This document shows, piece after piece, positions 15,706-29,232 of a stretch of DNA of 64,000 nt; the stretch's first letter is position 1, and the number at the start of each line of letters is the position of its first letter. The DNA comes from an uncultured Clostridia bacterium (GTDB taxonomy: Bacteria; Bacillota; Clostridia; Peptostreptococcales; Anaerovoracaceae). Both the position numbers and the translations under genes were made by a program. A model generated the notes under the pieces. That model had not been told where the DNA came from. It saw only the letters and a program-made list of their open reading frames with translations, and ran no database searches. Location: the NCBI GenBank assembly GCA_945830395.1, contig CALZYE010000006.1:1-64000 (forward strand). The letters run 5' to 3'.

Positions 15706-16425
15706 TTAAACTTCAACGCTATCTTTTTCTAATTCAAAAATTTTCTCAGCGACATGCAAATCGCTAAGATAAGTAATCTTCATATTTTCATTTCTGCCTG
15801 CAACCAATGAAACTTCATACTTATTTAAAATGAATACTCCCATTGCATCGGTTACTTGCTTCCTTTCGTCGTCGGAAAGTTCATTATAACATTTTTTAAA
15901 GTCCATGGCAAAAAAACTTTGTGGCGTCTGCACTTGGTAGCATTCTTTTCGCTTCAAAGCCATATCCACTACATCTCCGCCTCTGCTTATGAATATAGTA
16001 TCTGTGGAGGGCACCGCCGTAGTACAAATTTTACCCTCTGAAAGATATGATATATTTTCTTCTATTATGGTTTTAGTGATGAATGGCCTCACACTGTCAT
16101 GTGTTATCAATGCGGTATTTTTATCTATCCCATATTTTTTCTCTATGTAGTTTATACCGTTCATCAAAGTTTCATTCCTGTTATCTCCTCCGGATATAAC
16201 AGCTATATCTTTGTCTGCAAAATATTCTCTGCATAGTTTTTCAGTATATTCCTTCCATATTTCGGGACAAAGTACAATGATTTTGTTAATTTTATTACTA
16301 CATAGAAATTTTTCTATGGTATGAACAATAATCGGTTTACCGGCAATCTCAAGAAACTGCTTCGGTTTGTCTGTGTTGCCCATTCGATTTCCGTTTCCAC
16401 CTGCTAAAATCACTCCAAATATCAT
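15706..16425 (-). CDS. IspD/TarI-family cytidylyltransferase
   Basis: VILAGGNGNRMGNTDKPKQFLEIAGKPIIVHTIEKF, HDSVRPFI, QTPQSF. Confidence 0.9.
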   Translation of the reverse strand: MIFGVILAGGNGNRMGNTDKPKQFLEIAGKPIIVHTIEKFLCSNKINKIIVLCPEIWKEYTEKLCREYFADKDIAVISGGDNRNETLMNGINYIEKKYGIDKNTALITHDSVRPFITKTIIEENISYLSEGKICTTAVPSTDTIFISRGGDVVDMALKRKECYQVQTPQSFFAMDFKKCYNELSDDERKQVTDAMGVFILNKYEVSLVAGRNENMKITYLSDLHVAEKIFELEKDSVEV

Positions 16426-16452: not shown

Positions 16453-17748
16453 CTAATTGTTAACCTTCTCCATTATCTCTGCAATTTTGATGGATTCATC
16501 TTCAAACACGCCCATGGAGTCTATTCTATCGTTTGCAAGCATTGTAGAAAACGCCTTCAACAGATATTTGAAACCGTTTCCGGCATAATTGGTATTATAT
16601 ACTTCTACATGATCCGCATCTGTTTTTTCTACCTCAAAATAGTTGCCTCTCCACCACTTGCCCTTCGATCTAATCGTTCCCTTGGTTCCTATAATTTCCA
16701 ACTGATTGTCCACTCTTATGGAATTCCCCACATTAATAATTGCATTGCTGTTTTCATATTCGAAAAAGAGAGAAACGAACTCCATTCCCTCTGTACCGTA
16801 GGTCTTGTTTATTTTCAAATTCTTGAAATCCTGCCCTTGAATCTTTAGTATAGGTACCAAAGCAAGAGAAAGCAAATCAAATAAAATATTGTTTCTGGAC
16901 TTATCCTCTCTGGAAATTGAACAATTTATACTTAGAATATCTCCTATGAGACCTCCCTGTGTCATCCATAGAAGCTGGTTGAATACATGGATATGAACCA
17001 TTTTTATATTATCCATGAGTATTACATTGTGTTCTTTTGCAAGATTGTACAGATGCACTTGCTCAGATGCATCTAAGGAAAACGGAGGATCACTGATTAC
17101 ATGTTTCCCCTGTTTTATCGCTTCTTCTATATAACGACTTCTGTTATTAATCTTAGTTCTAACATAAACAATATCACTATTTTCAACTAATTCGCTGTAA
17201 TCGGCAAAGCTCTGCTTCAGATTATAACGCTGAGTAAATTCTTTCTTCAACTCATCATCGGCGGCATAGACACAGGCAACATTGAATCCGTTAACCAGTT
17301 TGGATTCTGAAATAAAGTTATTATCATCCTTTAAATCCGTTACAATCCCTACATCATATGTCGTAAAATTCTCTTGTCTGATCTGAGTGCTGGAGATACC
17401 TTTTGTTCGTTCAAGATATACCATATTGCAATATCTGCTCAAATGATCAAACTTACCTCTCCAATCATCCCCAATAACAAAAGTATCAACATCATATTTC
17501 ACGATGTCACTAATTTTCTGTCCGAGATATTCTTCCACTATTATCTGGTCAACAAGCCCTGTATTCTTAACATTTTCAATGCGCTCTGCCAGACTGTCGT
17601 GAACGGATAATTTACCTCTTCCTATATCATAGTTTTCACCGGTCACACCCACAATAAGGTAATCCCCGTATTCCCTTGCTCTCTTAAGTATATTGAAATG
17701 CCCTTTATGGAATAAATCATATGTTCCATAGGTTATAACTTTTTTCAT
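16453..17748 (-). CDS. Fusion: TagD-like cytidylyltransferase + degenerate Gfo/Idh/MocA-like domain
   Basis: N-term VITYGTYDLFHKGHFNILKRA...TFVIGDDWRGKFD...RTKGISSTQIRQ; C-term resembles GFO_IDH_MocA but GxGxxG absent and EKP replaced by DPP. Confidence 0.8.
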   Translation of the reverse strand: MKKVITYGTYDLFHKGHFNILKRAREYGDYLIVGVTGENYDIGRGKLSVHDSLAERIENVKNTGLVDQIIVEEYLGQKISDIVKYDVDTFVIGDDWRGKFDHLSRYCNMVYLERTKGISSTQIRQENFTTYDVGIVTDLKDDNNFISESKLVNGFNVACVYAADDELKKEFTQRYNLKQSFADYSELVENSDIVYVRTKINNRSRYIEEAIKQGKHVISDPPFSLDASEQVHLYNLAKEHNVILMDNIKMVHIHVFNQLLWMTQGGLIGDILSINCSISREDKSRNNILFDLLSLALVPILKIQGQDFKNLKINKTYGTEGMEFVSLFFEYENSNAIINVGNSIRVDNQLEIIGTKGTIRSKGKWWRGNYFEVEKTDADHVEVYNTNYAGNGFKYLLKAFSTMLANDRIDSMGVFEDESIKIAEIMEKVNN

Positions 17749-17778: not shown

Positions 17779-18948
17779 TTAGAATCTATTTTCTTCAATT
17801 TTATTTATTTCATTTCTAAATTCAATATTGTCAATGATTTTTTCCACTCCATCTATTTTTTCAATTGATATATACGGAACCTTTCTGTCACTCCATTTTT
17901 TGTTGAAATCTAAAAAAGGTTCAAGTTCATTATATAGCAGTAGATAATCTTTATTAGAAAGAAGCTTTTCAAAGTATTCTTTTTTCTGTCCATAAATACC
18001 TTTTAAATCGTACCACTGTCTTGCCATCAAATAAATATTCCACGATTTATTTATAACCTTGCGGTACTTACCTCCTCCTGCCAATATTCTTAATTGAGAA
18101 TCCAGGTTTTCGTAATATTCTTGCATGTATCCTTCAGATTCCAAAGCCTCTATAACATCACTGTACGGTATTTCTGTATCTTCAATTATCCACTCACCTT
18201 TCACAGGTGGTTTCATTTCCGTATTCTCGAAGTTTTCTCCGTATATATCCGTCAGGTATCTGCTCTTGTCTTTTGGTGTAATAATCTTAAGATTTCCTAA
18301 ACGGTTTTCTTCCAAATCTTTAAAGATGTCAACATGTACCTTCTTACCGTTAACTAAAACATATTTGTACTTTGAAATATCATCCCAGCTTTTTACCCAA
18401 AAATTATTTTTTCTGTAATTATAAATAAAATTTGCTATTGTATTTTCACCAAATATTTTTGCAATACAGCCACAAAAGCTTCCAAAAAAATGTTTTATTC
18501 CAACTCTGCCACTGTTACTGCATTTATTTTTTGCTGCCCAAAATCCTTCTAAAAATCCTGAAATATGCTTTTTGAATCTGCTATTTTGTGGTTTGCTTAT
18601 AATTCCTATATTGATAAATATTCCGTTTTTATTGTATTTCCGTAGATGCCTCAAATTAATATATGTAGTTTTACTATTTCCGTATCTATGTAAAAAGTTT
18701 CTCTGATCCATATTATTCAGGAAATATTCTACAAATCTATCATCCATGGTTCTAACAATCTTCTCAAACTTAAGGAAATCATCAGCAGCCATATAAACAT
18801 CCATGCTTGATAAGTTATCAGGTAAATTTCCGGTAACATAAAGCAACTTGGTCCCACTGGGACCTAAAACATATTTCAAATCATGTTCTTCACAAATTGA
18901 ATTCAATTCTCCAAGCAGTTCTCTCTGAATATCCATTACGCTACTCAT
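17779..18948 (-). CDS. Degenerate LicD-family-like protein (DDDID motif lost)
   Basis: KYVLGPSGTKLLYVTGNLPDNLSSMDVYM aligns to YYLAGGTALGAVRAGAFLPWDDDIDMYI of the upstream LicD; stop/start overlap. Confidence 0.65.
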   Translation of the reverse strand: MSSVMDIQRELLGELNSICEEHDLKYVLGPSGTKLLYVTGNLPDNLSSMDVYMAADDFLKFEKIVRTMDDRFVEYFLNNMDQRNFLHRYGNSKTTYINLRHLRKYNKNGIFINIGIISKPQNSRFKKHISGFLEGFWAAKNKCSNSGRVGIKHFFGSFCGCIAKIFGENTIANFIYNYRKNNFWVKSWDDISKYKYVLVNGKKVHVDIFKDLEENRLGNLKIITPKDKSRYLTDIYGENFENTEMKPPVKGEWIIEDTEIPYSDVIEALESEGYMQEYYENLDSQLRILAGGGKYRKVINKSWNIYLMARQWYDLKGIYGQKKEYFEKLLSNKDYLLLYNELEPFLDFNKKWSDRKVPYISIEKIDGVEKIIDNIEFRNEINKIEENRF

Positions 18949-20572
18949 ATTTCATTTCTCTCATTTCTGAATTTACTAACCCGAACAAATCCTTTGCGCT
19001 ACGCCACACAAAACCGTTTCTGGTATTTTCAATAGCTTCTTCATAAACTGCTCTCGATTCGTCTCTTCTGCCCTGCCTATATAATGTTTCAGCATAAAAG
19101 CTCAGCAGTTCTCCATCTCTGCCGTATTTGTCAATATATGATAAAGCCTTTTCTTCAATATCTCTCAGCGCCTCTTTTGAGTCTGCCCTATTCAAAATAA
19201 TCCAGAGTTCAGCCTTCGCATAATCCAAAAGGGTGTTCTTAACATGTTTATTGACATCAATTAATTCTTGAACTCTATCTGCATCTTTAAGATCATATAT
19301 TGCAACAGAAAAATCTCTGCATATTTTCCAAAGTGAAATTGCTTCAGTAAGCTTTTCTGACATTTTTCGTGAATTTGACATAATTATGGAAACGATTTTA
19401 CTTGATTTATAATATTGTCCGCTTAGAACATTAAACATAATTGCAACTGCAAGGTAGTCATCTTCAATATCCATTAACAGTCCGTATTTTTTTACATATT
19501 TATCGTTTTGTACCTCAAAGAATTTCCCTAATTCATCTTGCACTGAAGAAAAGTCGCCATTATTTAGAGACTCTCGCATGTGGTCTATATCATATCCGAT
19601 TTTATTAATATGCAAAAGCCCCGCTGCCAACTTGCACTTGGCAAAGCTTTTTTGCTTCTCTTCCTTGCTTTTAAGCTGCATAATTCCTATTTCTTTATTT
19701 GAAACATAACTGTTCCACAACTTTTCTCTGTTCAGAAGCGGCATATACATATCTACATATTCAGAAAATGGTGTAGTTAGATCCCTCTCTGTCACATGGA
19801 TTACCTGTCCATCACCCTGAGGTACATACATCCAGCTATCACCGTAAGCTACTCTAAAAATATACTCCGCATGCTCTCCCACAGGGAATTCATACTTTTC
19901 AAATTTTTCGTAGCGTGGTTTACCGAAGCTGTTTTTCCTGTACATTAGGGTTGCAAGTCCCCATCTCATACAATATGTATCCGTTTCATCGGTATCTTCA
20001 GTTTGAGATAATTTATTCAGAAGTTCTTCAAGCACCTTCTCTCTTCCGACTTTTTTACTCTTTTCGTGATACATGTTATATAGATCGAAATCAAAGTCAC
20101 TATCCTCAACTATTACTCCCCTATTAACAGTGAAATATGGTGTCAGCAATTCGGTATACACCTTCATCAGTTTTCTATGCTTCCACTTACCGTCTTCATC
20201 AGTCGGCATTGGATCCAGTATTAAAAATTCGATAACCTGACCGCATGATTTTCCACAGAGAAGCTGAGACTTCATCATAGAAGTAGTTCCGTTATGAACA
20301 TACCTTCCAATAGGATTGCAATATTTATCTGTATTTTCTACGCAGACAAAACTTCTGTTTTCAGGCGTCTCCGTTTCCATAACCTTAACAAGTTTATTCC
20401 AATTATCCCTTGTTATGTACATATCAATATCATCATCCCAAGGCAAAAAGGCACCCGCCCTTACTGCGCCCAGTGCCGTTCCTCCTGCCAAATAATAGGT
20501 TATATCATTTTTTCTACAAATAACATCTATTTCCTTTAGTAATGTAAGTAAATTTATCTGCAAACTATTCAA
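18941..20572 (-). CDS. LicD family phosphotransferase with TPR-like C-terminal extension
   Basis: GGTALGAVRAGAFLPWDDDIDMYITRDNW; C-term LSFYAETLYRQGRRDESRAVYEEAIENT. Confidence 0.9.
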   Translation of the reverse strand: MNSLQINLLTLLKEIDVICRKNDITYYLAGGTALGAVRAGAFLPWDDDIDMYITRDNWNKLVKVMETETPENRSFVCVENTDKYCNPIGRYVHNGTTSMMKSQLLCGKSCGQVIEFLILDPMPTDEDGKWKHRKLMKVYTELLTPYFTVNRGVIVEDSDFDFDLYNMYHEKSKKVGREKVLEELLNKLSQTEDTDETDTYCMRWGLATLMYRKNSFGKPRYEKFEKYEFPVGEHAEYIFRVAYGDSWMYVPQGDGQVIHVTERDLTTPFSEYVDMYMPLLNREKLWNSYVSNKEIGIMQLKSKEEKQKSFAKCKLAAGLLHINKIGYDIDHMRESLNNGDFSSVQDELGKFFEVQNDKYVKKYGLLMDIEDDYLAVAIMFNVLSGQYYKSSKIVSIIMSNSRKMSEKLTEAISLWKICRDFSVAIYDLKDADRVQELIDVNKHVKNTLLDYAKAELWIILNRADSKEALRDIEEKALSYIDKYGRDGELLSFYAETLYRQGRRDESRAVYEEAIENTRNGFVWRSAKDLFGLVNSEMREMKYE

Positions 20573-20617: not shown

Positions 20618-21589
20618 CTATCGTCCTAACCATATTTTATCCGTTGGAGGGTTAAGCGTGAATTCCTGCCCTTCAACATTATTTTCCCTGATAAATTCAT
20701 ACACCCTGTTTGCATAGTTAATATCGTGCATTGAAAGACCGACATTATATGCTATAATGCGTTCTTTTCTGTCGGTTCTGCCCTCTGCTTCACCTCTAAT
20801 AACCTGAGAAACTTCCGCAAAACTTTTGAATTTATCAAAGTATTTAAACTTGCAAACATGCTCCGTATCATCTCCAAATACCTTGTCAAAACTCAAGTCA
20901 CAGTTCATAAATCCTCTTAGGTGAATAGGTACAATCAAGCATCCTTCTTTGAAAACGCTGTCTTCACAAAAATTCCCCTGGAAAAAGGTTACTGCGGATA
21001 TTACAACATCAGAGTTTCTAATTACGGAATCATAGGAATCGACAAATTCAATTTTTACATTTATGTTTTCTTTGCCGGACTTACCTCTTATCATTTCTTC
21101 CATCATTAAATGCTGATCCTTATATTTAAGAATCTTCAGTTTAAAATTTTTATCCTTATATTTTGCACATAGTATTTTGATGGCAGCGCGTCCTGTGTTT
21201 CCCAGTCCCATGACACCCACTTCTTCAAAATCTTGATTTGCCAAAACACTAATTGTATGTACCGCAATGGCTCCGGTACGCATGGTAGTTATCCAACTTC
21301 CATCTAAAATTGCAACAGGGAGTAAAGTCTTATAATCAAATAAAGTTATAATGCTGTCAAGAGCCGGTTTTCTTTCAAGTCTTCTTGTAATAACCTTTAC
21401 TCCTGCAAAATTTTGATTAGGATAAACGGTAGGCATCACATTAAAAAACACATCATCCTGAGGAACTATACTTGTTTTCTTTGGGAGGATAACATCCGGC
21501 TTGTGCATAAGCATATCTTCAACCCAGTCAAAACATTGTTCAGGTGTAATCCCCAAATTTTCTATTTCGTTATGTGGTATTATTCTCAT
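20618..21589 (-). CDS. Ornithine cyclodeaminase / mu-crystallin family protein
   Basis: AGVKVITRR, ILDGSWITTMRTGAIAVHTISVLA, VGVMGLGNTGRAAIKIL. Confidence 0.85.
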   Translation of the reverse strand: MRIIPHNEIENLGITPEQCFDWVEDMLMHKPDVILPKKTSIVPQDDVFFNVMPTVYPNQNFAGVKVITRRLERKPALDSIITLFDYKTLLPVAILDGSWITTMRTGAIAVHTISVLANQDFEEVGVMGLGNTGRAAIKILCAKYKDKNFKLKILKYKDQHLMMEEMIRGKSGKENINVKIEFVDSYDSVIRNSDVVISAVTFFQGNFCEDSVFKEGCLIVPIHLRGFMNCDLSFDKVFGDDTEHVCKFKYFDKFKSFAEVSQVIRGEAEGRTDRKERIIAYNVGLSMHDINYANRVYEFIRENNVEGQEFTLNPPTDKIWLGR

Positions 21590-21622
21590 ATATAATTCTC
21601 CCTTCAAATCTGATAACAACTT

Positions 21623-22684
21623 TTATAGTAAATCTTTAATAGCATTTAAAAGCACTTCATTATCTTCAACTGTAAGATTTCCGATATGAGATACCCTGAA
21701 CATCTTAGTCCCCAATTCTCCTCCGGATGGATTTACAACAATGCCGTATTTTTCAATTAGTTTCTTATAAATCTCATTTGCATTGTTTTCAGGAAATAAT
21801 ACAGGTGTACAAGCATTTGAAAGAGGGTAATTCGGATAACTCAATCCAATAGCTTTAATGCCTTCTCTAAAATGTCTTGCCCTTTCTGCCGTGTCTGAAA
21901 CAACTTTGTCAACTCCAAGCGAGTCAATTCTTTCAAGCATTCTCTTCCACTCAAACACCACCCTAACTGCAGGGGTAAACGGTGTCTGACCTCTCTTTCC
22001 ATTTTCAATATGGCTCTTGAAGTCAAGATACATGGTCTTTGCGGGTAGTTTCATCACTCTTTCAATGAGCAGTCTACGGCTTAGTGCTACGAGTGCCAAT
22101 CCGGGAGCTAAAGACAGCGCTTTCTGTGAGCTCAAAATCACCGCATCAATCCCATATTTTTTCATGTCAAGCTCGTCAGCAAGGAAAGAACTTATACAGT
22201 CTGCAATAAAGTAAATTCCCCGCGATTTGCAAAAATCTCCTAAAAGCTTTTTATCATACAACTGAGCCGTCGATGTTTCATCAATATTCACAATTAATGC
22301 CGTCAGGTTTAGATCTTTCGCCGTTTCTTCCAATTTCTCTTTTGTAAGAGTTTCACCAAAATCAAGTTTAACCGCAGTATGTGGAACTCCATGAATTTCA
22401 CAAAGCTGAACAAATCTATGGCCGAAAGAGCCTCCATCTATTACAAGCAGGTGGTCATCTTCTGTAAAACAATTTAGAATAGTTGCTTCCATAGCGCCTG
22501 TTCCTGAACATGTAAGTGTAACCACTTCTCCGTCTTCGTCACAATTAAGAAATTCTTTTGTTTTTTTCATGCAGTAAAGCATTACCTCTGAAAATTCATC
22601 ATTTCTAAAATATGGCACCTGCTTGCCACCGATTTCCATTGTCTCTTCAAACATCTCCACCGGTCCTACCGTAAATAATTTCAT
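21623..22684 (-). CDS. Class V aminotransferase (AEP-transaminase / alanine-glyoxylate aminotransferase-like)
   Basis: LFTVGPVEM, LTCSGTGAMEATILNCF, VNIDETSTAQLYD, VILSSQKALSLAPGLALVALS (PLP Lys), NPSGGELGTKMFRVSHIG. Confidence 0.9.
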   Translation of the reverse strand: MKLFTVGPVEMFEETMEIGGKQVPYFRNDEFSEVMLYCMKKTKEFLNCDEDGEVVTLTCSGTGAMEATILNCFTEDDHLLVIDGGSFGHRFVQLCEIHGVPHTAVKLDFGETLTKEKLEETAKDLNLTALIVNIDETSTAQLYDKKLLGDFCKSRGIYFIADCISSFLADELDMKKYGIDAVILSSQKALSLAPGLALVALSRRLLIERVMKLPAKTMYLDFKSHIENGKRGQTPFTPAVRVVFEWKRMLERIDSLGVDKVVSDTAERARHFREGIKAIGLSYPNYPLSNACTPVLFPENNANEIYKKLIEKYGIVVNPSGGELGTKMFRVSHIGNLTVEDNEVLLNAIKDLL

Positions 22685-22750: not shown

Positions 22751-23863
22751 TCATATACAATCTATAAATTCACCAAGTTTTTCAGTTACATCCGTGAGAC
22801 TGTTATCCACATATTTGTTTCTGAACTTGTACATAAGGTCTAAATTATACTCTTTCGCAATTATTTTTGCAAGTTGCTTTCCATCTTCAGCAACATAAGG
22901 TGATATGGACTCTTTCATAAAATCGATGTTCAGCCCCGTAGACTCTTGATATTCTTCGTAGTCATAAAGATAAAAATACAATTCTTTTTCCGTAAGTGAT
23001 GCTTCAACTGAAAATGATGAATAATCGCTAACTACACAATCTGCCAGATTTAAAAAGTCATATGATATAAACTTATCATCATATATAACATTACTCTTCT
23101 CTATTTTGGCAGTACAATCATCAAGCGGATGTAATTTAACTATGAAAACATACTCATCCTCTTTAAATTCTCTGAATAACTTTTCCAGAGGAACCCCTCT
23201 GCCTTTTCTCATAGTCGGTACATAAAGTATAATTTTTCTTTTCTCTTCAATCAAATTGGGATATTCCCTTAGAATTTCTTGGGTATTTTGCTCGTCAACA
23301 TTCCTTATATAGTCTATTCTCGGAAGACCTTGTCGAACTAACTTTTCGGAGTCAATATCAAAAGCTTCCGAAAAAAAGCGGTCTGTCGCTTCAGATGCAC
23401 TAATCACATAATCGTATTTTCTGTGCATATTCATAAGCTTCGCAAGATCTTCTTCTGCACCATCTTTTTTCCCTATAGTCTGATAACCAAATTTCTTAAT
23501 TGCACTAACAGCATGCCATATCTGTACAATGTGCAGGTCACTCTTATGTTTCAGGTTACTTATCATTATACAATAAGTATCCGTAACTACCACCTTTGAG
23601 ACTGCAAATTCCCACATTTGCCGAAGCATATGCAACACATAAGGCATAAGTCCCACAGGACTTTTCTCAAGCTTTTTGGATAGAATTACAACCTTATATC
23701 CATAGCTTTTTTCAAGTTCTTGCCTGAGCATTGCGAAATCCAAGCTTTCTTCATCGCTTTCCCTGCTCACTAAGGTTACCTGTTTTGTGACAGGCCTCAG
23801 CTTCATTAATAGATAAAGCGTGTTCATAAAGAAAAAGAACATTTTAATCAAAATCTTTTTCAT
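22751..23863 (-). CDS. CDP-glycerol glycerophosphotransferase family protein (TagB/TagF)
   Basis: QIWHAVSAIKKFGYQ, GLPRIDYI, ILYVPTMRKGRG, VKLHPLDD, CVVSDYSSFSVEASLT. Confidence 0.9.
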   Translation of the reverse strand: MKKILIKMFFFFMNTLYLLMKLRPVTKQVTLVSRESDEESLDFAMLRQELEKSYGYKVVILSKKLEKSPVGLMPYVLHMLRQMWEFAVSKVVVTDTYCIMISNLKHKSDLHIVQIWHAVSAIKKFGYQTIGKKDGAEEDLAKLMNMHRKYDYVISASEATDRFFSEAFDIDSEKLVRQGLPRIDYIRNVDEQNTQEILREYPNLIEEKRKIILYVPTMRKGRGVPLEKLFREFKEDEYVFIVKLHPLDDCTAKIEKSNVIYDDKFISYDFLNLADCVVSDYSSFSVEASLTEKELYFYLYDYEEYQESTGLNIDFMKESISPYVAEDGKQLAKIIAKEYNLDLMYKFRNKYVDNSLTDVTEKLGEFIDCI

Positions 23864-25121
23864 CGAAGAAAATCCTTTCAATAACTCTTTCCGAAGCATT
23901 TCCATCATCTAAATAATTAAATTTATTTCCGAATGTTATATACTTTTCGTCTAAAACGAAATTATCTGTCAGATGCTTTACTTGTGCAATCAACTCCTCT
24001 TCAGTTTTTACAATAGGTCCGGGTAATTCATCCAATGATAAATAAAAGCCTCTAAGTTCATCTCTATACTGTTCAAAATCATACATATAATATATTATTG
24101 GGCGTTTAAGGTTTGCATAATCAAAAAACACACTTGAGTAGTCAGTTATCAGCATATCCGAAACTAAGTATAAATCGTTAATGTCACTATATTTAGACAC
24201 ATCAAATATAAATCCCTCATATTTTTTGAAATCAAATTCATTTGCAACTAAATAGTGAGCTCTGAACAAGATTATAAAATCATTTCCCATCTCCTTTTGC
24301 AACAGGTCAAAGTTGACCTCAGTCTTATATGTATATCCTACACCCTTTGTGTATTGATTATCTCTCCAAGTCGGTGCATACAAAATTATTTTTTTATTTC
24401 CAATTTTATTTAGATTGAGCTTTGATTTTATATTCTTTATTTCACTGTCAGATACTGTGAACAGTCTGTCATTCCTCGGATATCCTTCTTCTATGACACA
24501 GTTTTCCTTCCCGTACAGTTCCATATTCCATGCGCTTATAAATTTAGATGTAGCCCACTTGCTTGGAGAAATAAAATATTTAAATCTTTCTGTGTCACGA
24601 ACATATTTTTCATATATTTCCTCATCCGAATTCATTGCATTTGCACTATTTCTAAGATCAAAACCTAATCGTTTCAAGGGGGTTCCGTGCCAGCACTGCA
24701 CATAAACTTGATCTTTTTTAGGGATATAAAAATCAAGCATCCTGTAATTTGTAATCCAATAGCCTGCAGTCTTAATTACCCTTATTTCCCCTTCACTAAG
24801 CCTCTTTACAACATCGGTATTCTTATTTTCATTTAAGAAAACATACTCCTCAGGATTATCAAAGGTCCACACAAAACGATAATCCTCAAATCTTTCATCC
24901 TTTAACATGGCCTCATATATAGCTCGTGGAGAATCGCTATAGTTTTTACCCTTAAAGCTGTTGAAATAGATCAATTTTTTATCGGTCTTTATATTTTCAA
25001 TTCCTTTTAAATACTTTGCCGTTTTATATTTATAGTTTATTACTTTGGCAAACTTTCTGAAGGTCTTGTGATTCTTTGCATAACCTTTTATCAGCAATTT
25101 CAACTTCTTCTTTATTGACAT
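23844..25121 (-). CDS. CDP-glycerol glycerophosphotransferase family protein (TagB/TagF)
   Basis: VQCWHGTPLKRLGFD, EEGYPRNDRLF, ILYAPTWRDNQY, MLITDYSSVFFDYANLKRPIIYYMYD. Confidence 0.95.
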   Translation of the reverse strand: MSIKKKLKLLIKGYAKNHKTFRKFAKVINYKYKTAKYLKGIENIKTDKKLIYFNSFKGKNYSDSPRAIYEAMLKDERFEDYRFVWTFDNPEEYVFLNENKNTDVVKRLSEGEIRVIKTAGYWITNYRMLDFYIPKKDQVYVQCWHGTPLKRLGFDLRNSANAMNSDEEIYEKYVRDTERFKYFISPSKWATSKFISAWNMELYGKENCVIEEGYPRNDRLFTVSDSEIKNIKSKLNLNKIGNKKIILYAPTWRDNQYTKGVGYTYKTEVNFDLLQKEMGNDFIILFRAHYLVANEFDFKKYEGFIFDVSKYSDINDLYLVSDMLITDYSSVFFDYANLKRPIIYYMYDFEQYRDELRGFYLSLDELPGPIVKTEEELIAQVKHLTDNFVLDEKYITFGNKFNYLDDGNASERVIERIFFDEKDFD

Positions 25122-25207: not shown

Positions 25208-25597
25208 CTATTTTTTTAATTCCTGTTTAATTTGAGTTGTTGAAATTTCAGGAGTTCTTGGTAGATATACCACATCGCATTGATCCTTCAAAAAATCGAA
25301 TTTCCCTTCCCAATCGTCACCTATAACAAATGTATCCACATGATACTCTTTGACATCACTAATTTTTTGCTCCCAATTTTCTTCCGGAATAACAAGATCA
25401 ACATATCTAATGGCTTCAACCAAATTCTTCCTCTGTTCATAGCTGAAGTAACACTTCTTGTTCTTTGAATTCCAGTTAAACTCATCTGTTGAAATGGCTA
25501 CTATAAGATAATCTCCGTACTCCTTGGCTCTTTTGAGCAAATTAACATGTCCGTAATGCAGCAAATCGAAAGTTCCGTATGTAATAACTCTCTTCAT
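25208..25597 (-). CDS. tagD: Glycerol-3-phosphate cytidylyltransferase (TagD)
   Basis: VITYGTFDLLHYGHVNLLKRAKEYGDYLIVAISTDEFN, VDTFVIGDDWEGKFDFL, RTPEISTTQIK. Confidence 0.95.
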   Translation of the reverse strand: MKRVITYGTFDLLHYGHVNLLKRAKEYGDYLIVAISTDEFNWNSKNKKCYFSYEQRKNLVEAIRYVDLVIPEENWEQKISDVKEYHVDTFVIGDDWEGKFDFLKDQCDVVYLPRTPEISTTQIKQELKK

Positions 25598-25718: not shown

Positions 25719-26645
25719 TTAATTAATATCTTCAAAACATTTCTTTACAATCTCCCACTGACTTTTTATAAAATTATTATACCTTCTTAACGGTGTTCTT
25801 GTCTTATTCAGTTCTCTTACATCTTTACCTATATTCCCCGAAACATTACTTCTTTTCAAGGCTTTTCTGTATTCCACATACGAGTATTCTGCATCTATAA
25901 TTGTACTCTTATTTATTTCCTTTGAATTATATATTTTAGTTTTCCATTCAGGACCTAATGTAGCATTAAAGTACAAATCACAGTTTAACGGGATTTTACA
26001 TTCCACTTCTTCAAACAGGACTGTCTGAGTCTCTGAATATATATCTTGCGGCAAAACAACTTTTTTCAAATTAGAGTTTTTCCTATAATATAATTTGTCA
26101 CTCAGTGTTGCATGTTTTTCCAGTTTTTCCAATGAGCTAAGCATCAACAACCTGAGAAAACTTTCATATTTTCTTCCAATTCTTTTAGGCAGCTTCTTTA
26201 AGAACCAACCCTTCCTAAATTTTCTCTTAATCCAATAATAATAAATATATTTGCTTACTGAAAAGCGCTCTTCTACATTTTGAGAATAAATGGGAATAAT
26301 GCTGACGGCAATACCGTTTTCTTTGATTTTTAGGGGATTGTTTAATCTCCAGTATAGACTATCACAATCAACATACCTGAATATATTAGCTCTAAGCTTT
26401 GAATTTGAATACAGAGATTCCATACACCTATTGCTCTGATCTTTTTCTTCAATGATTTTCTTCAATTTAAGTATATTCTTATAAAGCATTCCTATTTCTA
26501 ATGTTGGCGATTCTGATTCAAATGCTCCGCTTCTAAAGCCTCTCAATGCATATGAACCCATTAAAAAAAATTCCAAACCATTCTCGTCACATATAGATTT
26601 AATTTCTCTCAATAACTGAATTATTTTCTGTTGTGCTTTCGTCAT
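25719..26645 (-). CDS. Degenerate LicD-family-like protein (DDDID replaced by SPTLE)
   Basis: FFLMGSYALRGFRSGAFESESPTLEIGM aligns to the LicD motif block; overlaps 3' end of canonical LicD. Confidence 0.7.
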   Translation of the reverse strand: MTKAQQKIIQLLREIKSICDENGLEFFLMGSYALRGFRSGAFESESPTLEIGMLYKNILKLKKIIEEKDQSNRCMESLYSNSKLRANIFRYVDCDSLYWRLNNPLKIKENGIAVSIIPIYSQNVEERFSVSKYIYYYWIKRKFRKGWFLKKLPKRIGRKYESFLRLLMLSSLEKLEKHATLSDKLYYRKNSNLKKVVLPQDIYSETQTVLFEEVECKIPLNCDLYFNATLGPEWKTKIYNSKEINKSTIIDAEYSYVEYRKALKRSNVSGNIGKDVRELNKTRTPLRRYNNFIKSQWEIVKKCFEDIN

Positions 26646-28251
26646 ATTTTCTCCCCGTAAGCGCGTTTAATCTTTCATCAACATGTAATAACAGCATTCC
26701 ATTTTTGGTGTTTTCTCTAACCTCATTATAAAGTTCTACCAAACCTTCAATTCTGCACAAGTCAAACTTAATATCTGCAAGCAACCCTGTAAACTCCACT
26801 CTGTCTCTATAAGCAATTGAAAGCTTGTATACTTGCTCCTCCAAGCGTTCAAGTTTATTTTTATCTGCTGAAGCTTGACAATATAGAAAACTTACCTTAA
26901 GATACTCCGCATCATAAGATTCTATTGTTTCACAGTATTCATCCAGCTTTAAAATTAAATCTTCTTCATTTTTAAGTTCATTATCATAAAATTTAATGTA
27001 TAATTCACTTATAATGTTTAAGAAATCACTTAATTTTTTTAACTTCCCGGTTACCGGCAGTTTTTTCGCTCTCCATGATAAAACATCCTTTGCAGGTATG
27101 TAGTCGCCTTTCTTTATCAACGGTAATAACGCATAGTACAAATTCTCATCGCCTATATTCAGAAATGACTTTGTTCGGTTGAAGATCAAGCTGAACTGCA
27201 GCCTATACCAAATCTCAAAATTCTTTTCAATCCCGGTAAAATCGCCGTCTTTTTCCATACGGTCAAGTTCTTCCAATGTTTTTCCGTATTTTTCAAGTTT
27301 ATCTACTACATGTACTCTATGCGCAGCTTGCTGTTTTTCTAATATTTCCAGTGATTTGAAATAAACCTTGGGAGATAGATATTTTCTTTTTCTGTAGGCT
27401 TCCATAAGCTTAGGTTTGTCTATAAGCCCCTTATATATCTGCACATATTCTAAATAGGATTTTTTATCATCAGATATTATATCATGAATTTTTTGTTCCT
27501 CTATTTCAGGAATATACATCCAAGACTCACCGTATTCGGCTCTTAAGGCACCCTCTGCATACGGCAGTACGGGAAGTTCTGTTTGCTCAAAGGAAACATA
27601 CTTAGGTGGTCCTACCCATTCCTTTTTTATGCGAACATCATTGCCTCCCCACCTCAGACAATATTCATCGCTTTCGTCTATATCAATCGTAAAAAGCTCG
27701 CTTTCCAATTCTTTTAAGAGCTGCTCTCTCCCTTCAGATTTACAGCGTGCTAAATAAAAATTATATAAATCCTTATCAAGATATTCAAATATGTTGTAAT
27801 TTGCCACCCTAAAATTAGTATTTATCAGTTCTGTGTATATCCAATGCTTTTTCCTCCACTGAATTTTTTCTTTAGGATCAAATGGCATGGGATCTATAAT
27901 AAACAATTCCAAAAAATAACCTTTAGGATGATCATCTATCATCCTGGAAGGAATCATCATTGTGCTTTTTTTGTCCACCAATCTGCATATACAGTTATTA
28001 TAATTTTTATACAGCGAATGATCCAGATATACGAGTTCTTCTTTCTCAAACTCCTCTCTAAAATCTACTATCTTCTGCAAATTTTCTCTATCGATGTATA
28101 AATCAATGTCATCATCCCACGGAATAAAGCCATGATGCCTGATTGCGCCTAAGGCTGTTCCACCTCCCAAATAATATGTAATATTATTTTTTTTGCAAAT
28201 TCTTTCAAACTTAGTCAATAACTCGTACAGTTTGTTTTGCAGCTTATTCAT
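26599..28251 (-). CDS. LicD family phosphotransferase with C-terminal extension
   Basis: GGGTALGAIRHHGFIPWDDDIDLYIDREN; paralogous over full length to 18941..20572. Confidence 0.92.
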   Translation of the reverse strand: MNKLQNKLYELLTKFERICKKNNITYYLGGGTALGAIRHHGFIPWDDDIDLYIDRENLQKIVDFREEFEKEELVYLDHSLYKNYNNCICRLVDKKSTMMIPSRMIDDHPKGYFLELFIIDPMPFDPKEKIQWRKKHWIYTELINTNFRVANYNIFEYLDKDLYNFYLARCKSEGREQLLKELESELFTIDIDESDEYCLRWGGNDVRIKKEWVGPPKYVSFEQTELPVLPYAEGALRAEYGESWMYIPEIEEQKIHDIISDDKKSYLEYVQIYKGLIDKPKLMEAYRKRKYLSPKVYFKSLEILEKQQAAHRVHVVDKLEKYGKTLEELDRMEKDGDFTGIEKNFEIWYRLQFSLIFNRTKSFLNIGDENLYYALLPLIKKGDYIPAKDVLSWRAKKLPVTGKLKKLSDFLNIISELYIKFYDNELKNEEDLILKLDEYCETIESYDAEYLKVSFLYCQASADKNKLERLEEQVYKLSIAYRDRVEFTGLLADIKFDLCRIEGLVELYNEVRENTKNGMLLLHVDERLNALTGRKYDESTTENNSVIERN

Positions 28252-28266
28252 TTTATTAACCCCTAA

Positions 28267-29232
28267 CTAAATGTTTCTCATAATCTTCAATACATCTCCA
28301 ATACTTTCATTCGTACATTTGTCCTTATCTTTCCTATGTTTATTGCCCATAACAACGATAAGATATATTTTTTTATGTTTTTTAGCCACTACAACAACAG
28401 TTCTGCCAACTGAACGCGAGTAGCCATATTTACCACCTATAACCTTGAATTTGCTATTATTGTATTCTTTAAACCGCTTTACCGTTGTATTACTGCATTT
28501 CACCCCCTGAGGATGTTGGGGAGTTCTTCCGGACCTATAACTTGCAGTTGTAATAATTTTATAAAATTTTTTATCCTTCATTGCAATACGCAAAAGTCTT
28601 ATTACATCTCTCGCCGTGCTATATTGCCCTTTCTTCTTCGCCCCATCGACATTTACATATTCAGTATCTTTTAAACCAAGCTTCTTAGCTTCCAGGTTCA
28701 TCTCTTTTACATAATTTTGGGCATTCCCCTTGAGCCTTATGGCAATTGTTTTTGCACTGTCTGCATCCGATCTCAGCATCATGGCGTAAAGTAAGTCCTT
28801 ATATCTCAGTTTTTCACCTTGCACATAGTCCGAAGAGGTTTCTCCCTGTTTTAGCGTTAATTTTAGCACCTTTGCATCTAATTTGATTTTATCACTCAGT
28901 TTTATATTTTTTTGTGACATTATCTGCAGGGCTTTCCTACAATTCATAAGCTTAACCAAGGATGTCACCGGCATTCGTTTCCCACCGTTACGGTCAAATA
29001 TAACCGTATTACTTGTCAAATCATACACATGGATGCATCTGCTGTTATAATCAAGTTTTTTTAGCTTCTTCAAATGTTGTGATTTAACAGATTTCCCCGT
29101 GATTTTTGTCTCCTTATTTCCTTTATTTGTTTTACTTGCACCACCATCCACACTGCAAGAAACAAGCAATGAGGAAACCAAAACCATGCACATGCCAATA
29201 GCAATATATTTCATTTTACTTAAATGGCTCAT
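28267..29232 (-). CDS. S11 (D-Ala-D-Ala carboxypeptidase)-like lipoprotein with altered active-site motifs
   Basis: Lipobox LLVSC; SxxK in PVTSLVKLM; SxN position reads SDA (MLRSDADSA); KTG position reads KYG (GGKYGYSRSVGRTVVVVAKK). Confidence 0.8.
   Translation of the reverse strand: MSHLSKMKYIAIGMCMVLVSSLLVSCSVDGGASKTNKGNKETKITGKSVKSQHLKKLKKLDYNSRCIHVYDLTSNTVIFDRNGGKRMPVTSLVKLMNCRKALQIMSQKNIKLSDKIKLDAKVLKLTLKQGETSSDYVQGEKLRYKDLLYAMMLRSDADSAKTIAIRLKGNAQNYVKEMNLEAKKLGLKDTEYVNVDGAKKKGQYSTARDVIRLLRIAMKDKKFYKIITTASYRSGRTPQHPQGVKCSNTTVKRFKEYNNSKFKVIGGKYGYSRSVGRTVVVVAKKHKKIYLIVVMGNKHRKDKDKCTNESIGDVLKIMRNI

Follow-up and report, generated by a model that had tools for sequence, protein, structure and literature searches.

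Bacterial LicD enzymes attach decorations to polymers of the cell surface, and the human dystroglycan enzymes FKTN and FKRP are related to them. The two human proteins are LicD-type ribitol-phosphate transferases that use CDP-ribitol, and FKRP works as a dimer in which acceptor recognition is shared between the subunits (PMC6965139, PMC4873967). Three FKRP acids (Asp362, Asp364 and Asp416) are regarded as catalytic, and assays have covered alanine mutants of all three as well as of Asp360 (PMC6965139). The open literature that we searched contained no description of LicD enzymes paired with a dead LicD. Such a module is real, occurs repeatedly and, on the evidence of that literature, is undescribed. 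Two examples lie in a 64,000-nucleotide stretch of DNA (the window) from an uncultured Clostridia bacterium of the family Anaerovoracaceae. Each consists of a canonical LicD and a degenerate one (C1/D1 and C2/D2), set among genes for a teichoic-acid-like polymer.

Two LicD pairs and their genomic setting

The features of the locus, in window coordinates, are as follows.

15706..16425 (-), TarI-like D-ribitol-5-phosphate cytidylyltransferase (NF001183, 280 bits, cut-off 166)
16453..17748 (-), TagD-like cytidylyltransferase fused to a Gfo/Idh/MocA oxidoreductase, next after D2 (PF01467, PF01408)
17779..18948 (-), D2, degenerate LicD of 389 aa with the C-terminal segment (212.6 bits against a degenerate profile built without the window)
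18941..20572 (-), C2, canonical long-form LicD (PF04991, 93.1 bits)
20618..22684 (-), ornithine-cyclodeaminase-family protein and PhnW-like (PhnW/AepZ-like) aminotransferase (profile searches)
22751..25121 (-), two CDP-glycerol glycerophosphotransferase-family (TagB/TagF-type) proteins, polymer backbone (PF04464)
25208..25597 (-), TagD-type glycerol-3-phosphate cytidylyltransferase, next after D1 (TIGR01518, 208 bits, cut-off 165.4)
25719..26645 (-), D1, degenerate LicD of 308 aa, catalytic positions altered, C-terminal segment absent
26487..26528 (-), GAFESESPTLEIGM of D1 (aa 40-53), at the DDDID position (alignments)
26599..26645 (-), 47-nt overlap of the end of C1 with the start of D1
26599..28251 (-), C1, long-form LicD of 550 aa, active site intact (PF04991)
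about aa 1-260 of C1 (-), LicD nucleotidyltransferase-fold domain (AlphaFold2 model)
26656..27456 (-), all-helical TPR-like C-terminal domain of C1, about aa 266-532 (AlphaFold2; weak Foldseek TPR matches)
27907..27909 (-), Glu115 of C1, third catalytic acid position (aligned columns)
28102..28116 (-), DDDID of C1, aa 46-50 (sequence), matching the Asp cluster of FKRP at Asp362/Asp364

C1 belongs to the LicD family by score (108.7 bits against PF04991, cut-off 22.6) and by its active site, which has both the D-x-D within WDDDID and a third acid, Glu115, the presumed equivalent of FKRP Asp416. Its AlphaFold2 model (pLDDT 87.8, pTM 0.83) predicts an FKRP-like nucleotidyltransferase fold; in a Foldseek search of the PDB, FKRP ranks first with probability 1.00 but an E-value of only 2.7e-3, followed by weak TPR matches. 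The original prediction had been made from the letters of the sequence, and its coordinates, reading frames, overlap, DDDID in the 550-aa protein and motif block in the 308-aa protein are all present; so is the full-length paralogy of C1 and C2 (33% identity over 528 aa). The overlap of C1 and D1 suggests translational coupling, and other stand-alone pairs have intergenic gaps of -80 to +31 nt. Directly upstream of C1 (window 28267-29232) is a protein that resembles D-alanyl-D-alanine carboxypeptidases.

D1 is a LicD relative without the active site. The block ESESPTLE replaces DDDID, with Thr at the Asp48 position and Glu at the Asp50 position; the three catalytic positions read Thr, Glu and Ser, and the full set of catalytic acids is missing. 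At 17.1 bits, D1 also falls under the PF04991 cut-off of 22.6. Against a degenerate-LicD profile built without window sequences, it scores 190 bits (E 1.4e-56), and still 176 bits once its two nearest relatives are dropped as well, so that the resemblance is not due to chance; within the window it has a distant resemblance to both C1 and D2 (BLASTP E about 1e-6). The AlphaFold2 model of D1, made from a nine-sequence alignment (pLDDT 72, pTM 0.74), has FKRP chains as its best PDB matches (E about 1e-5, probability 1.0, TM about 0.4). Over the first 120 residues, the models of D1 and C1 match closely in where their helices and strands lie and in what order, and D1 is predicted to keep the FKRP/LicD nucleotidyltransferase fold.

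D1 resembles the other degenerate domains in its profile match, its placement within their clade and its adjacency to a canonical LicD, but it lacks their C-terminal helical segment and ends about 90 aa early. Stand-alone degenerate homologues are longer in 33 of 35 cases, most of them 365-432 aa; the only ones of similar or shorter length have 313 aa (L091) and 229 aa (L106). No remnant of the missing segment is present in any frame of the 121-nt gap between D1 and the next gene. This truncated copy may be partly decayed or may have lost part of its function. GC content by codon position is flat in D1 (0.32, 0.31 and 0.30), and its neighbours differ in this respect.

The reading frame of D1 is nevertheless open at 33% identity to the nearest relative. 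Comparison with the nearest relatives gives pN of 0.48-0.50 and pS of 0.81-0.85 (z about 8), and closer pairs elsewhere give pN of 0.25-0.27 and pS of 0.77-0.85; these are raw proportions rather than proper dN/dS, because dS is saturated even in the closest pairs. A neutral sequence would be expected to have pN equal to pS. The lower pN indicates that D1 is under purifying selection, and the neutral evolution that would have undermined the original prediction is not borne out.

The surrounding genes bear on the possible donor. A cytidylyltransferase gene directly follows each window pair, 30 nt past D2 and 121 nt past D1. The TagD-type gene at 25208..25597 is a candidate donor maker for C1/D1, and the two genes at 20618..22684 are candidates for making the donor of C2/D2. 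The PhnW-like aminotransferase recurs near pairs in L086/L104, L091 and L109, and the ornithine-cyclodeaminase-family protein near the pair in L091. A link between cytidylyltransferases and pairs in particular was considered and set aside: such a gene lies within 250 nt of 15 of the 48 pairs and of 21 of the 92 short-form LicDs (p = 0.31), which is not a significant difference. Its presence near both kinds points to CDP donors for LicDs generally and to nothing specific to pairs. Phosphocholine, the donor of LicABCD systems, is disfavoured, since no PF01633 choline kinase (LicA) was found in the genome (98.9% complete) by a search whose control missed some known genomes and which a divergent LicA could escape. 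Beyond the locus are what we take, by resemblance, to be an ABC-2-type exporter and an LCP-type protein.

Two further neighbourhoods were observed. Relatives of the TagD-like/oxidoreductase fusion adjoin pairs in several genomes (e.g., L074, L075, L095, L097 and L107). In two genomes of the same genus, the pair is adjoined by genes for a short-chain dehydrogenase and for an enzyme of the thiamine-diphosphate type (L035:9157-11631 and L037:11364-13874), both named by resemblance, which hint at another precursor.

Distribution and ancestry of the pairs

We searched 351 genomes of Anaerovoracaceae with the degenerate-domain profile and fetched the best loci. Matches occurred in 89 genomes and 27 of 92 genera, a count that includes cross-matches to canonical LicDs, and the LicD domains were then sorted into canonical and degenerate by their aligned catalytic columns. 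A canonical partner accompanies 49 of the 50 degenerate domains listed, and the sole exception (L103) starts at a contig end. Among the 49, 14 are fusions, 28 place the degenerate gene after its partner and 7 before it. Loci L086 and L104 are the same contig counted twice, which leaves 48 distinct partnered domains: 14 fused to a canonical LicD and 34 adjacent on the same strand. They come from 29 genomes and 6 genera of Anaerovoracaceae and from six other named records, including the isolate Blautia schinkii; degenerate copies thus extend to several genera beyond the source strain, as the original prediction needed. In one reversed fusion (L082:8598-10700), the degenerate domain is N-terminal and the canonical LicD C-terminal.

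Most pair loci were picked by their match to the degenerate profile, which introduces a selection bias; a search of the genome contigs with the canonical alignment alone provided an unbiased sample. In that sample, all seven long-form LicDs, in which the match extends into the helical region (L104-L109 and L111), have a degenerate partner, compared with none of 93 short-form canonical LicDs. Two other proteins of the sample (L120 and L167) are long, with the match confined to the LicD domain. Six long-form LicDs in the Anaerovoracaceae loci initially appeared partnerless. Those in L087 and L092 have a more diverged neighbor that matches the degenerate profile, and that in L082 sits between other pairs. 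The remaining three (L094:2529-4310, L096:2991-4829 and L098:2569-4326) are similar to one another, form a small clade and have no detectable degenerate partner.

D1 alone, as a query against the genome contigs, retrieved no relatives; these were found by whole-genome profile and canonical-partner searches, and the degenerate alignment is too variable for a pattern search. In a class-wide sample of 391 genomes, there was no match above 100 bits outside Anaerovoracaceae, and the eight such matches that were fetched are canonical LicDs.

The active-site columns separate the two partners. In all 48 canonical partners, two Gly, one Arg, a Trp and positions 1, 3 and 5 of DDDID are invariant, and the second Asp of DDDID is kept in 47. 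The third acid (Asp or Glu) is present in 48/48 canonical partners and 3/48 degenerate domains. Among the degenerate domains, none is acidic at all three catalytic positions and two are acidic at two of them; the second position of D-x-D is acidic in 25. Degenerate domains also share conserved positions of their own, such as an NN motif and a basic residue at the Asp of the LD motif: this Asp is present in 41/48 partners and is Arg or Lys in 28/48 degenerate domains.

We built a tree from the domains of 46 paired canonical, 41 degenerate and 22 short-form LicDs, and in it each group falls on one side of a branch (SH-aLRT 100 for the degenerate and 97 for the long-form canonical domains). With the motif columns removed the grouping holds, at 97 and 98, respectively. 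The degenerate proteins accordingly form a clade, in answer to a question posed with the original prediction, and loss of the active site was probably a single, ancient event. L032 and L072 are the nearest relatives of C1 and likewise of D1, and C2 and D2 have L086 and L091 in common among theirs. Canonical and degenerate partners have the same nearest neighbor in both trees in 26 of 46 pairs; in 10,000 shuffles, the average was 1.0 and the highest count 8. A common species history feeds into this agreement, which therefore shows co-inheritance and does not by itself show interaction. Deep distances are saturated, and for that reason the whole-matrix mirror-tree correlation is weak (Spearman 0.17; up to 0.36 in shuffles). 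Degenerate domains evolve at about three times the rate of their partners (median ratio 3.1), and weaker constraint would fit this as well as specialization.

Judged from these trees, the two pairs of the window represent separate old lineages that go back to one ancient pair, and in each the partners have been inherited together. The co-evolution of partners that was to be checked for the original prediction holds in that sense; its description of the second pair as independent does not, since all degenerate domains share one clade and both pairs go back to one ancestral pair. C1/D1 and C2/D2 belong to different old lineages and have different cytidylyltransferase neighbors, and relatives of C2/D2 again occur close to a PhnW-like aminotransferase; it is plausible that the two pairs install different substituents or modify different positions.

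Readings of the degenerate partner

We propose that C1 and D1 probably form one heteromeric LicD-type transferase for phospho-alditol or similar groups, with D1 as its non-catalytic subunit, that acts on a teichoic-acid-like polymer. The donor for C1 would be CDP-activated, most likely CDP-glycerol, CDP-ribitol or a derivative that a neighboring cytidylyltransferase makes, and C1 would transfer its phospho-group to an acceptor in the polymer made by the locus. D1, as a pseudoenzyme LicD subunit pairing with C1, would either position the polymer acceptor or activate and stabilize C1. The pair would have originated in a single ancient LicD duplication, one product of which shed the catalytic residues yet was retained; later duplications and transfers would have moved the pair as a unit.

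The analysis shows the lost catalytic residues, the retained predicted fold, the shared ancestry, co-inheritance, fusions and purifying selection of the degenerate domains; the physical complex, the inactivity and exact role of D1, the donor and the acceptor are inferred. All partners of the 48 domains (14 of them fused) keep the three catalytic acids, and none of the 48 does. Partnering is restricted to the long form in the unbiased sample (7/7); the domains form one clade, are co-inherited and have pN below pS. Both proteins have FKRP-like predicted folds, and the locus has TagB/TagF-type, TagD and TarI genes in a genome where choline kinase was not found. For a dead paralogue that is fused to or overlaps its partner and is inherited with it, the simplest account would be a subunit of the same enzyme. 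Fusions and co-inheritance lend indirect support to a physical complex and to activity that depends on the partner. The case is tempered by the truncation of D1, the threefold rate, the partnerless L094, L096 and L098, and the non-specific cytidylyltransferase link.

Alternatively, the degenerate subunit may be a regulator with no part in acceptor binding: having bound a donor, CMP or an intermediate of the polymer, it would allosterically tune or stabilize its partner. This is a sub-case of the heteromeric explanation, and we regard it as possible but on balance unlikely. It has precedents in EryCII, which stabilizes and allosterically activates EryCIII (PMC3391682), and in the yeast LicD-domain protein Mnn4, which is presumed to regulate the Mnn6/Ktr6 transferase positively (PMC5681524); nothing found here separates regulation from acceptor recognition. 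It is improbable that D1 and its relatives are still enzymes that catalyze another reaction on the LicD fold with other residues. Their shared conserved positions (Arg/Lys for Asp, the NN motif), purifying selection and the acid at the second D-x-D position in 25/48 would agree with such activity, but the three acids occur together in 0/48, residues at those columns vary widely and the consensus has no standout replacement acidic set.

Finally, a decaying pseudogene is very improbable despite the lost active site, missing C-terminus, fast-evolving family and flat codon-position GC, given an open frame at pN 0.48 and pS 0.81 to the nearest relative, the overlap with C1 and a single ancient clade in which 14 of the 48 partnered members are fusions. 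Function rather than decay, as originally argued from the recurrence of the pair, is upheld by the spread over several genera, the fusions, the single clade, co-inheritance, pN below pS and frames that are open throughout.

Returning to the heteromeric transferase, the findings suggest that these Anaerovoracaceae gut bacteria keep a dead LicD for a purpose, as half of a two-part machine. More tentatively, and as a possibility that we do not lean towards, such LicD transferases might be obligately two-part, with a fast-evolving dead subunit that sets acceptor specificity; lineages would swap or acquire whole pairs, and a genome could hold several, each for a different decoration. If the pair is a functional unit, annotations that call the partner hypothetical, or one more LicD, mislead, and acceptor choice could be tested by taking the two subunits apart and combining them anew. 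For structural studies, the fused forms provide constructs that consist of one protein.

Comparison with described systems

Profile, motif and predicted fold all place C1 in the LicD family (PF04991); it differs as a long form with a TPR-like domain and a degenerate partner. D1 has the same predicted fold and a weak profile match, but not the catalytic residues. Pneumococcal LicD1 and LicD2 are likewise more than one LicD in one teichoic acid system, and both are regarded as active phosphocholine transferases, unlike the degenerate partners.

The yeast Mnn4 and Mnn6/Ktr6 system also includes a LicD-domain protein without shown activity, Mnn4, as presumed regulator of a mannosylphosphate transferase (PMC5681524), but the regulated enzyme belongs to the KRE2/MNT1 family and is not a LicD. 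EryCIII and EryCII similarly combine a transferase with a stabilizing, activating pseudoenzyme (PMC3391682); EryCII, however, is a P450 homologue unrelated to EryCIII. Like FKTN and FKRP with ISPD, the window has a TarI/ISPD-type cytidylyltransferase. The FKRP subunits are identical, unlike those of a canonical/degenerate pair, and the accessory part of FKRP is a glycosyltransferase-like stem domain without an HxD motif rather than a dead LicD domain.
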